From a virus, in IMG/VR virus record IMGVR_UViG_3300032311_000111, positions 1 through 37,838 of that record: 37,838 bases of DNA. One strand, 5' to 3'. The position numbers were made by a program, and so were the translations under genes. The notes beneath the pieces are model-generated. The model was not told the DNA's origin. It did no database searches and saw only the letters and a list, made by a program, of their open reading frames with translations. This document shows, in pieces, positions 9,209 through 11,637 of the stretch. The first letter of the stretch is position 1, and every line of letters starts with the position of its first letter.

Positions 9209-9358
9209 TTATTTGCTTTCGTTAAATTTCCTGAGTTGTTCTTCCATTGTTGCGATTGCTTCACGCATCTGCATCTGCACCTGTTCGGAGCGATTATAAA
9301 CAGTTCTTGCGTGTTCAATGTTCTTCTCAAATTCATTTATCAATTCAGCCTTTGTCAC
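9209..9358 (-). CDS. Small coiled-coil protein, 49 aa
   Basis: A GTG at 9358 overlaps the stop of the glycosyltransferase gene (GTGA), the same coupling seen elsewhere in the block. The product (MTKAELINEFEKNIEHARTV..., then YNRSEQVQMQMREAIATMEE) is a single charged helix with heptad-like spacing of Leu, Ile and Met, likely an oligomerising coiled coil. No family is recognised. Confidence 0.6.
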   Translation of the reverse strand: MTKAELINEFEKNIEHARTVYNRSEQVQMQMREAIATMEEQLRKFNESK

Positions 9359-10476
9359 TTGTTCGCTCCATTGCTAAAGTCTAAATCAACAGCCTTCTTG
9401 CTGGCCTCAATAATATCCTCGGCCTTGATGTTCCTCAGTGCATTGCACCACATCTGCGTCTTCGGTGTCTTGTTGGTCGCATCCTTACACTTGGCCTGTG
9501 GCAACCCAGCGTGCGGACGACAAGGTGCGTGCGGGCAGGTATCGGGCTTGAACACCGATACGTTCTTAGGATAAAACGTCATTCTGTCGGCGGGCGAGTA
9601 GCTGCCCCACAACGACACACACGGAGTATCCAACCCAGCAGCCATGTGGTTGACTGAGCTATCTGGCGCGACAACAAAGTCAGCCCCGCTAATAATCGGG
9701 AACAGCGAGCGCACAGCCTTGGTGCAGTTGAACAAGTCAATCACTCTCGGATGATCCACCTTAAAGTTGTTGCTGTTATCCAGCCCGATAATAACAGCGT
9801 GATGTTTTGGGTAGGCTTCAAGCAACGCCAGCACCGCCTCCTGCCCCATCGTTGGCGGGTAGGTGCGGGTCGGACCAGAACTGCTAACATGATAAGCAAA
9901 GAACGGACTAGGCAACGGCCACTTGCCCATCGCCTTCAACTCTTCGTGGTCTGGCTCAATGAGATGCAGAACTGGCTTACAATACTTTGCCATCTTCTTC
10001 TCATCCCAAACACCCATCCACTCGTAGATCCGCTGGTAGCAATTGCCAGGACCAGTGCCTAGCTTCGTGTTGCCAACCTGTCCGCTGAACAGATCGTCAG
10101 TAGGCAGGTGCGCATCGAAAGAATCCCAAGCCTCCAGCGATGCAGGCAACGGCCACAGCCTTGCACCCAGCCCAGCGTAGAGAGGCAGGTTGCGAGCAGG
10201 CGCGTAAACCTCCACAACCCCACCCGACTCTTGCACCAAGTAGTTGACGAAGGCAGTAGCGATGATTGCGTCACCGATTGCACCAGCGCGGTAGACGGCT
10301 GTTGCACCACCAGCAGCACGACCAGGCCAATACGGCTTGATTTTATGTGGGCAAGGGATTGAATCGTCCCAGGTTGGTCCAGTTAGCTCATCTGGCAACA
10401 CATAGGTAGTGCGTGGGTAGAGCATATTGTCATCGACTTTGTGAATTGCGTTAGTGTTATTTGTCCATAGTTTCAT
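9355..10476 (-). CDS. Glycosyltransferase family 9-like (heptosyltransferase-like) protein
   Basis: The 373-aa protein has a GT-B, heptosyltransferase-like build. The N-terminal domain contains a Gly-rich loop RAGAIGDAIIATAFV (63-77), the usual GD-x-(I/L)-x-(A/T) motif. The C-terminal nucleotide-sugar site contains FVVAPDSSVNHMAAGLDTPC followed by VSLWG (D-S-S-x-x-H-x-A-x-x-x-x-x-P), typical of GT9. Bacterial GT9 enzymes add heptose to the LPS core. A Cys-rich tail (DTCPHAPCRPHAGLPQAKC...MWC) is unusual and may bind zinc. In a phage it could modify host LPS, virion proteins or DNA. It lies directly downstream of the cytosine methyltransferase with a 4-base overlap. Confidence 0.75.
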   Translation of the reverse strand: MKLWTNNTNAIHKVDDNMLYPRTTYVLPDELTGPTWDDSIPCPHKIKPYWPGRAAGGATAVYRAGAIGDAIIATAFVNYLVQESGGVVEVYAPARNLPLYAGLGARLWPLPASLEAWDSFDAHLPTDDLFSGQVGNTKLGTGPGNCYQRIYEWMGVWDEKKMAKYCKPVLHLIEPDHEELKAMGKWPLPSPFFAYHVSSSGPTRTYPPTMGQEAVLALLEAYPKHHAVIIGLDNSNNFKVDHPRVIDLFNCTKAVRSLFPIISGADFVVAPDSSVNHMAAGLDTPCVSLWGSYSPADRMTFYPKNVSVFKPDTCPHAPCRPHAGLPQAKCKDATNKTPKTQMWCNALRNIKAEDIIEASKKAVDLDFSNGANK

Positions 10477-11465
10477 TTGTTATCCTCCATTATTTTGTTG
10501 ATACATCTGATGATTTCTGACGCGACTTGCGGGACAATGGCGTTACCCAATCCTTTAAGTCGGTGTGACCTATTGGGTATCCCATTAGCCACTCGACCCA
10601 CGTTGGGTTCAGCGAGCCACGTTGCCACTCCTCTGGAGTTGTCCCTCGAATGTCTGGATGATTCCCAAACATCTTCTGCATATTCCCCTTCGGAGTTCCA
10701 GCAGCATCCTCGTTTGCTGACGGAGTCGGCCACATTCTCACTGCTGTCTGAAGAGTTGCTCCCCATCTCGTTCCGTTGGCTGATGTCCTCGTCTTGCCGT
10801 CCTCGGACACAGCCCCACTCCTTGCTCCCGTGTGCGCCCCTCTCGGACAGGCTGATGGAGTCGGCCACATCTGCGGATGCACAACTTGCTCCCGAAGATT
10901 CCCACTCCTTGACCCTCCCTCCCTGTTCTTCTGATTTGTCGAGCAATCCTCCGCTTGTCTTGGAGGCAGTGAGTCCATCGAGTTTGGAGTGGCCCACAAT
11001 CCAAACCCTGTCTCTTCTGTGTGGCGCGTCAACGGCGCAAGCTGGAACAATGATCGGTTCGACTTCGTAACCTTGACCTTCCAGATCAGCGCACACCTGG
11101 TCGAGTGCCAAGTTGACGATCCCAGCAACATTCTCACCAATGATCCAAGCGGGCTTTGCTTCCTGTATAACTCGCAACATTTCAGGCCAGAGGTAACGGT
11201 TGTCATCCTTGCCTCGTTGCTTCCCTGCGACTGAGAATGGTTGGCATGGAAATCCACCTGTGAGAAGAGTGACTCCTGCGTATAGCTCGCCTCGTACTTC
11301 GCGGATGTCTTTGTGGCACGGGACTTCTGGCCAATGCTTTTTGAGGACTGCTTGGGCGTAGGGTTCGTTGTCACAGAAGCCAACGGTTCTATATCCATTC
11401 CACTTGGCTGCCAAGGCAAATCCTCCGATCCCACTAAATAAGTCAAGGTGGGTTTTTTCATTCAT
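10473..11465 (-). CDS. DNA (cytosine-5) methyltransferase
   Basis: The 330-aa enzyme transfers a methyl group from SAM to C5 of cytosine. Visible motifs: I LDLFSGIGGFALAA (7-20), IV GGFPCQPFS with catalytic Cys74, VI ENV (111-113), VIII DAPHRRDRVWIVG (146-158), and IX/X NRSHRLKGLGNAIVPQVA (298-315). The target-recognition region (about 160-290) is Ser/Gly/Glu-rich and carries the repeated tetrapeptide VADS (200-203 and 245-248), as many relatives do. No restriction partner is visible, so the likely roles are protection from host restriction or regulation. A second frame (10490-11461) lies completely inside this gene. The start overlaps the upstream gene by 8 bases; AGAGG lies 9 nt upstream. 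Confidence 0.93.
   Translation of the reverse strand: MNEKTHLDLFSGIGGFALAAKWNGYRTVGFCDNEPYAQAVLKKHWPEVPCHKDIREVRGELYAGVTLLTGGFPCQPFSVAGKQRGKDDNRYLWPEMLRVIQEAKPAWIIGENVAGIVNLALDQVCADLEGQGYEVEPIIVPACAVDAPHRRDRVWIVGHSKLDGLTASKTSGGLLDKSEEQGGRVKEWESSGASCASADVADSISLSERGAHGSKEWGCVRGRQDEDISQRNEMGSNSSDSSENVADSVSKRGCCWNSEGEYAEDVWESSRHSRDNSRGVATWLAEPNVGRVANGIPNRSHRLKGLGNAIVPQVASEIIRCINKIMEDNK
10490..11461 (-). CDS. Overprinted 323-aa frame inside the cytosine methyltransferase gene
   Basis: A 323-codon frame without stops runs almost the length of the methyltransferase gene, on the same strand, shifted by one base. Its ATG (11461) forms an ATGA overlap with the upstream gene's stop, the operon's usual coupling, and lies 4 bases after the methyltransferase ATG. 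The predicted protein contains STRCALIWKVKVTKSNRSLF (120-139), ETGFGLWATPNS (150-161), two MWPTPSA motifs (198-204, 243-249) and SLNPTWVEWLMGYPIGHT (283-300). I recall this WPTPxA / LNPxWVEWLMG pattern from predicted proteins next to or within Dcm genes. The WPTPSA repeats are the same DNA that encodes VADS in the enzyme. Whether it is translated is unknown. Confidence 0.5.
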   Translation of the reverse strand: MKKPTLTYLVGSEDLPWQPSGMDIEPLASVTTNPTPKQSSKSIGQKSRATKTSAKYEASYTQESLFSQVDFHANHSQSQGSNEARMTTVTSGLKCCELYRKQSPLGSLVRMLLGSSTWHSTRCALIWKVKVTKSNRSLFQLAPLTRHTEETGFGLWATPNSMDSLPPRQAEDCSTNQKNREGGSRSGNLREQVVHPQMWPTPSACPRGAHTGARSGAVSEDGKTRTSANGTRWGATLQTAVRMWPTPSANEDAAGTPKGNMQKMFGNHPDIRGTTPEEWQRGSLNPTWVEWLMGYPIGHTDLKDWVTPLSRKSRQKSSDVSTK

Positions 11466-11637
11466 CCCCCGCTACCTCTTTGCACACCAAGCTCGCCGCA
11501 TCCACCATCGTTATAATCTGGATCATATCTATCGCGTGTCCGTGAGTCGCGCGATCCCTCTCAACTACAAGCTTATTGCGTGCAATTGAAAGGATTTCGC
11601 GCGCCCACTTGAGGCGATCTTTAGCCTCGACTTGCAT
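11458..11637 (-). CDS. Small hypothetical protein, 59 aa
   Basis: The ATG at 11637 overlaps the previous stop (TAATG), and the stop at 11458 overlaps both the overprinted frame's ATG (ATGA) and the methyltransferase start. The product (MQVEAKDRLKWAREILSIAR..., then NKLVVERDRATHGHAIDMIQ) is a single amphipathic helical protein. Not recognised. Its position suggests coupled translation with the methyltransferase. Confidence 0.6.
   Translation of the reverse strand: MQVEAKDRLKWAREILSIARNKLVVERDRATHGHAIDMIQIITMVDAASLVCKEVAGDE

Follow-up and report, generated by a model that had tools for sequence, protein, structure and literature searches.

The window, by which we mean the whole 37,838-base virus record analysed here, is taken to be that of a phage, because primase-like, exonuclease and tail-fibre matches occur near the locus among the 10 neighbouring ORFs scanned. 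Its minus strand carries alpha, a C5-cytosine methyltransferase (MTase) gene, and beta, a second frame nested within it (Table 1). A first-pass annotation had described the nested frame as 323 codons long, on the same strand as the methyltransferase gene and shifted by one base, with an ATG overlapping an upstream stop as ATGA and a product containing repeated WPTPSA motifs and SLNPTWVEWLMGYPIGHT. These descriptions are accurate. The beta ATG (11461-11459), 4 nt after that of alpha, overlaps the stop codon of a 59-codon open frame upstream, which has no PHROG match, and the beta product contains WPTPSA twice, WATPN once and SLNPTWVEWLMGYPIGHT. An opposite-strand open frame of 197 codons (10477..11070, plus strand) also overlaps the gene. 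Directly downstream of alpha is a 373-codon ORF (9355..10476, minus strand) without a PHROG match, whose ATG overlaps the alpha stop.

Table 1. Coordinates of the two overlapping frames and their features in the window
Feature	Coordinates	Strand	Description	Basis
Alpha gene, C5-cytosine methyltransferase	10473..11465	-	330 aa, motifs I-VIII and X	PF00145, phrog_363, TIGR00675, M.HhaI fold
Beta gene, nested in alpha at +1	10490..11461	-	323 aa, ATG start	phrog_1008, substitution pattern
Alpha motifs I-VIII	10986..11456	-	residues 4-160; PCQ 73-75, ENV 111-113	M.HhaI profile match
Alpha variable stretch	10593..10976	-	residues 164-291	low pLDDT, neutral frame-0 omega
Alpha C-terminal helices with motif X (GNAIVPQ)	10479..10571	-		predicted helices
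Beta hairpin ALIWKVKVTKSNRSLFQLA	11033..11089	-	beta residues 125-143, encoded by the DNA that in alpha leads up to motif VIII	predicted strands
Beta module 1, WATPNSMDS...LREQVVHPQM	10868..10996	-	residues 156-198	module cluster 1
Beta module 2, WPTPSACPRG...LQTAVRM	10733..10867	-	residues 199-243	module cluster 0
Beta module 3, WPTPSANEDA...QRGS	10613..10732	-	residues 244-283	module cluster 2
Beta LNPTWVEWLMGYP, proposed motif IX	10574..10612	-	residues 284-296	match to L198
ATGAATGA	11458..11465	-	alpha ATG, TGA stop in beta frame, beta ATG, upstream frame's TGA	
Upstream open frame	11458..11637	-	59 codons from ATG; its stop overlaps the beta ATG	

The alpha product matches phrog_363 (E 2.4e-77), PF00145 over residues 7-187 only (E 4.4e-44) and, by profile, residues 12-174 of M.HhaI (E 3.7e-36). 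It has motifs I-VIII of a C5-MTase with PCQ and ENV, and P73 C74 Q75 and E111 N112 V113 are invariant in 56 aligned sequences. M.HhaI is also the nearest solved fold to its AF2 model (Foldseek E 1.1e-14), the core of which is mostly above pLDDT 90. The C-terminal helices (residues 299-307 and 310-329) are predicted with a mean pLDDT of 93 for residues 311-320 and 90 for residues 321-330; taken alone, the alignment of alpha's motif X to that of M.HhaI is below significance. Residues 164-177 and 183-291 have pLDDT values below 50 (about 40 over 183-291), to which a poor alignment may contribute. Between its motifs VIII and X, a C5-MTase requires both a region for target recognition and motif IX (PMC3404938). 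Neither is apparent in the alpha chain, where the PF00145 match ends at residue 187, pLDDT is low and omega is 1.10, but the match to the dcm profile TIGR00675 (E 1.1e-35) spans residues 7-320 and counts against their being missing. In alpha, residues 164-291 probably form an unstructured linker; over this stretch, the recognition region is probably encoded in the beta frame.

A protein-database search with beta, as the first-pass annotation had proposed, was productive in part. Beta matches phrog_1008, labelled 'DNA methyltransferase' (E 1.1e-29; residues 41-302 against profile positions 14-281 of 329), in line with the annotation's statement that its motif pattern goes with Dcm genes; but there was no significant match in Pfam or NCBIfam, no PDB match by profile search, and no PDB match at E 0.001 or better in a Foldseek search with the predicted model. 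That model is poor (mean pLDDT 58.6, pTM 0.25). Within it, a hairpin is formed by predicted strands at residues 125-131 and 137-143, with a mean pLDDT of 77 over residues 121-130 and 91 over residues 131-140, and similar residues are found at the hairpin across A1.

The case for motif IX in beta is made through related genes. Over the proposed motif IX segment, the window's beta aligns with L198, a gene from a Rickettsiales genome bin, with a score of 86, and L198 aligns with the C-terminus of a canonical MTase with a score of 58; 0 of 2000 shuffles were as good in either comparison. The window's beta also aligns with gp72 of mycobacteriophage Dorothy (score 52, 2 of 2000 shuffles as good), which in turn aligns more weakly with a canonical C-terminus (46 of 2000 shuffles as good). 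Compared directly with a canonical MTase, beta gives no significant alignment (462 of 2000 shuffles as good), and with a second canonical MTase the alignment is in another register (46 of 2000 as good). Comparison by way of L198 and Dorothy gp72 supports a connection, in sequence, between the beta C-terminus and motif IX.

A key question is which of the two frames is under selection, and this was addressed with 50 sister pairs of nearest relatives, rates being classed by their effect in both frames. Counted by frame-0 codon position (1/2/3), the differences over motifs I-VIII number 455/221/1138. In the variable region they number 1095/550/549, the fast position being the first of alpha, which is the third of beta. 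Pairs that are at least 95% identical have corresponding counts of 43/8/182 for motifs I-VIII and 166/12/10 for the variable region, and 48 well-aligned variable segments give 543/119/82. Across the 124 codons of the variable region (residues 159-282), frame 0 has an omega of 1.10 (CI 0.97-1.24) and beta an omega of 0.35 (CI 0.24-0.43), with values of 0.05-0.07 for beta in close pairs; a second estimator, which has few sites here, gives 0.64 for beta (CI 0.39-1.05) and alone would not exclude 1. The variable region of 30 pairs of canonical MTases, used as a control, shows 694/509/1154 differences, a frame-0 omega of 0.41 and a +1 omega of 0.83. Because the control has no frame switch, the switch in the variable region separates the nested family from canonical MTases.

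The flanking parts behave differently. Near motif X, omega is 0.34 in frame 0 and 0.49 in beta (CI 0.37-0.61; 0.38, CI 0.27-0.53, by the second estimator with few sites), and the +1 omega of the canonical control between IX and X is 1.00. Over codons 111-158, before motif VIII, omega is 0.17 in frame 0 and 0.33 in beta (CI 0.22-0.44; 0.32, CI 0.24-0.43, by the second estimator, again with few sites), with a control value of 0.53 (CI 0.40-0.73) for the stretch before that motif. For motifs I-VIII taken together, the +1 omega does not count as evidence for beta, since the canonical control is equal (0.58-0.64, against 0.53-0.63 in the family). The first ~55 codons of beta contain almost no stops in the window's clade, but there is no measurable constraint on them (omega 0.75, CI 0.48-1.36; 8.08, CI 2.24-10.36, by the second estimator). 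The 41 sequences that start ATGAATG have no +1 stop in codons 20-158; in the 11 non-redundant ones, ~10 stops would be expected over codons 0-60, and there are shuffles without a stop in either half. As an internal control, 19 pairs without an ATGAATG or GTGAATG start, most of which have an internal beta start, show no +1 constraint over codons 3-55 (1.09, CI 0.83-1.43).

These substitution patterns indicate that constraint is mainly on alpha in motifs I-VIII and on beta only in the variable region, where alpha evolves as if neutral. The signs that both frames are constrained are clear near motif X, and weaker, though suggestive, over codons 111-158. The test of selection on the second frame that the first-pass annotation had called for therefore points to a constrained beta between motifs VIII and X. 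Its proposal of dual coding stands insofar as the second frame appears to be conserved coding sequence; it does not stand as two equally constrained products over most of the stretch.

The arrangement itself is widely conserved. We compared 256 loci, of which 80 were found through alpha and 175 through beta, the other being that of the window; some contigs were fetched twice, and there are 232 distinct beta ORFs, the window's included. Both parts are present in 250 loci (78 of the 80 found through alpha), and beta is at +1 in every one of the 250. Four of the remaining six, which lack the N-terminal part of alpha, start at a contig end, and the other two (L194 and L195) are remnants. L194 and L195 were considered as free-standing betas and rejected, because alpha C-terminal sequence is still present in the overlapping frame; no free-standing beta was found in these two or in the 250 two-part loci. 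A segment resembling motif IX at +1 together with motif X in frame 0 occurs in 230 of the 256 loci, the window's record among them. By comparison, then, the beta frame is shown to bear the marks of selection between VIII and X, in a +1 arrangement that is conserved. In L177 (308-716 and 1221-1605), the best beta match is ~500 nt beyond the match to the alpha N-part, still at +1, and the gap can be read as a long insertion or array.

The matching sequences belong to phages, plasmids and genome bins from several phyla. At E 1e-5, 71 phage records match beta and 1,585 match alpha, so most of the phage C5-MTases that alpha reaches lie beyond the reach of beta. Phage annotators have called alpha, beta or both, depending on the record: among the matches listed, 40 phage records have two features (25) or one (15) under the match. 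In a bacterial setting, an E. coli chromosome record (L379, 1111-2139) has only alpha annotated, with beta open at +1 and matching the family profile. Plasmid records from Enterobacter (L380, 1122-2147) and Citrobacter (L381, 1122-2132) list alpha alone in an incomplete gene table, and each has a nested beta that is open at +1 and matches the family profile. A related phage gene, L259, is matched in 68 of 5,426 E. coli genomes, none over 80% of the gene; the nested beta was checked in one E. coli genome.

Two related loci are arranged differently. In Dorothy, gp71 (L260, 1186-1746) contains motifs I-VIII, and gp72 (L260, 1724-2275), at +1 to gp71 with a 23-nt overlap, contains module, IX-like and X segments. 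Dorothy gp72 matches phrog_1008 (2.4e-63) and part of phrog_116 (2.6e-12), and a canonical MTase, the L262 protein, matches phrog_116 over residues 1-302. In L198 (1634-2656), motifs IX and X are both in the alpha frame and module-like sequence is still at +1; its protein matches PF00145 over residues 3-334 (E 4.8e-50). This arrangement could be a frameshift error. Taken together, the loci fit a series from a single chain through a tandem split to a nested split in which motif X has returned to frame 0, although the direction of the series is conjectural.

Of 216 distinct variable regions, 10 have motifs IX and X elsewhere than at +1 and 0, respectively, a count that includes L198, which lacks an X match. 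A run of at least eight of one base or of at least five dinucleotides is found in 8 of these 10 out-of-phase regions and in 7 of the 206 in-phase ones (Fisher p 2.6e-9, related loci included). The alpha N-part has 0.009 such tracts per kb, the flanks 0.12 and the variable region 0.27, repeated contigs included. The tracts in out-of-phase copies may reflect phase variation by slippage, decay or assembly error. Tracts of (AG)10-19 or G8-10 were noted in the variable region of out-of-phase copies at L065 1044, L066 3025, L074 3025, L067, L069, L072 3049, L163 2963 and L178 3205.

We consider it probable that the phage encodes a naturally split C5-cytosine methyltransferase with alpha and beta as its subunits, beta contributing motif IX and the region for target recognition. 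In the mechanism that we infer, alpha would fold into the catalytic domain, built from motifs I-VIII together with the motif X helix at its C-terminus, and the part of alpha between VIII and X, where the DNA also encodes beta, would be a non-conserved and unstructured linker that is only kept open. Beta would be translated from its own start and would bring motif IX and a target-recognition region of three WPTP-type modules, by which DNA would be recognized. The two would associate into one active enzyme that methylates phage DNA, presumably protecting it against host restriction.

The first-pass annotation had suggested that the second protein modulates the enzyme. A beta that is an independent regulator or partner, and not the enzyme's recognition part, would be in keeping with its lack of a recognised fold and the indirect nature of its motif IX match. 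Such a role is nevertheless unlikely, given that alpha has no selected, confidently folded recognition region of its own, that beta never occurs apart from alpha sequence in the 250 two-part loci and two remnants, and that Dorothy gp72 and L198 place a similar C-terminal segment just before motif X. Beta is better described as supplying the recognition region and motif IX, and the annotation's interpretation as a whole is partly supported.

There is also the question of how beta would be produced. The start ATGAATG is found in 41 of 131 family ORFs, and further ones read GTGAATG. In distant relatives, a possible beta start is located inside alpha (at codons 55-66 in 21 of 25 listed cases) and closely follows a stop in the +1 frame. 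An SD-like motif precedes the internal start in 20 of 31 non-redundant relatives, compared with a mean of 8.6 and a maximum of 14 in 500 codon shuffles. In the window, translation of the upstream 59-codon frame could possibly be coupled to that of beta. Alternatively, ribosomes might shift frame after motif VIII to give a fused alpha-beta chain and no separate beta: the 23-nt overlap at +1 of the Dorothy genes is a layout also known with frameshifting, and the frame of IX and X has changed at the DNA level in 11 loci and L198. We regard this as very unlikely, because beta has its own start in the window, with ATGA at the upstream stop, the relatives start internally after a +1-frame stop with the SD-like motif in 20 of 31, and a single shift would lose motif X in the 230 of 256 loci that have IX at +1 and X in frame 0. 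Separate initiation of beta thus appears to be the better reading.

The length of the open frame is a poor guide to its significance. The first-pass annotation had put the probability of such a run at about 2 in 10 million, which is not a fair null because a +1 stop is possible only where frame 0 has an L, I, M or V codon, and because canonical MTases also carry long +1 open runs. Among 76 canonical phage C5-MTase ORFs, the runs have a median of 162 and a maximum of 207 codons, compared with a median of 282 and a minimum of 192 in 131 distinct complete ORFs of the nested family. (The canonical control comprises those of L262, L263, L266-L272 and L300-L377 with a complete, distinct ORF; L273-L299 and L378 were left out.) In the window alone, 500 rounds of synonymous-codon shuffling give a P of 0.098 in the variable region, compared with 0.004 in motifs I-VIII. 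In a set of 62 sequences, consisting of the window and relatives found through alpha, +1 stops are depleted rather than frequent, with 64 against 344 expected in motifs I-VIII and 20 against 135 expected in the variable region, counts below every one of 500 shuffles. Because these sequences are related and do not amount to 62 independent tests, it is the substitution tests that carry weight. That beta is a chance open frame, seemingly conserved only through conservation of the methyltransferase, is extremely unlikely: canonical MTases do reach runs of 207 codons and the window-only test of the variable region is weak, but +1 stops are depleted, and the codon-position and rate tests reject this reading, the variable region having frame 0 free and +1 constrained where the canonical control has the opposite. 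The observation of a second frame inside the methyltransferase is thus confirmed, on sequence evidence, as real and as more than chance, by comparison rather than by length.

Split C5-MTases are already known as a kind. In M.EcoHK31I, the small gene is nested in another frame of the large gene, and beta is similarly nested at +1 in 250 of 250 two-part loci. As described in PMC3404938, M.EcoHK31I (YGGCCR) is a two-polypeptide C5-MTase with motifs I-VIII and X in the large subunit, which alpha resembles in this respect, and motif IX in the small one. The nested pair would operate in a comparable way, except that the same paper places the predicted TRD of M.EcoHK31I in the large subunit (PMC3404938), whereas here selection puts the variable region in beta. 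A 'Mte8-like' label on L259 is a lead, and only that, to kinship between beta and M.EcoHK31I. M.AquI is likewise a naturally split C5-MTase, divided within the variable region into separate catalytic and C-terminal parts; however, its small subunit has both IX and X, whereas here X stays with alpha. The layout of Dorothy gp71/gp72 is nearer to that of M.AquI than the nested pair is.

Nested +1 pairs of the same families are already in databases, as phrog_363 with phrog_1008 and as Rani gp50 with 'g50 Internal gene', and a 'putative Mte8-like protein' of E. coli phage fKuEco01 belongs to the same nested family, the name being a label only. No statement of a role for these database-labelled pairs was found in the literature searched. 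Nor was a description of the frame switch or of the modules found in that literature, which was mostly without subscription journals and is weak evidence of novelty. We consider the location of the recognition region in an overlapped frame, the module array and the switch of selection between frames to be new.

The modules of beta were delimited by pattern in the 197 of 232 distinct beta ORFs that have a motif IX pattern, the other 35 being left out. The units start with W(P/A/R)TP or similar and are located before motif IX, and the window's beta has three. There are 526 units in the 197 proteins, 0 to 6 in each and 2 or 3 in 147, with a median length of 41.5 residues. Turnover was assessed by an alignment-based comparison in which the clusters are coarse and the pairs not independent. 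Alpha N-parts are at least 93% identical in 314 pairs (108 loci), and module make-up differs in 262 of these pairs; 52 of 61 loci in those pairs have a neighbour with a near-identical alpha and different modules. Because module make-up differs among near-identical alphas, the array turns over faster than alpha.

Multispecific phage C5-MTases of the SP-beta type have several recognition units of ~40 residues, which share a chain with the catalytic motifs. The beta arrays are similar in having several units of about that size in one variable region, and differ in that the units are in the +1 frame and not in the catalytic chain. By analogy with these enzymes, and from their turnover and position, the modules may be recognition units. 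It is conceivable, although we would not presume it, that each ~40-residue WPTP module reads its own DNA sequence, that modules are swapped, added or dropped beside a nearly constant alpha, and that in some lineages G or AG tracts within the array slip and so switch the part of it that is combined with the catalytic half. If this were so, the unselected but tolerated linker of alpha would let the module array vary freely.

Finally, the locus provides a natural example of a single gene along which the selected reading frame switches and later switches back, with the neighbouring regions serving as controls. The split-enzyme reading predicts that many 'DNA cytosine methyltransferase' genes of phages and prophages are half-annotated. 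Alpha alone would then be no guide to specificity, and anyone recoding the annotated gene with synonymous codons should expect beta to be destroyed. Should the modules prove to be recognition units, the restriction pressure on phages could be read from their beta arrays.
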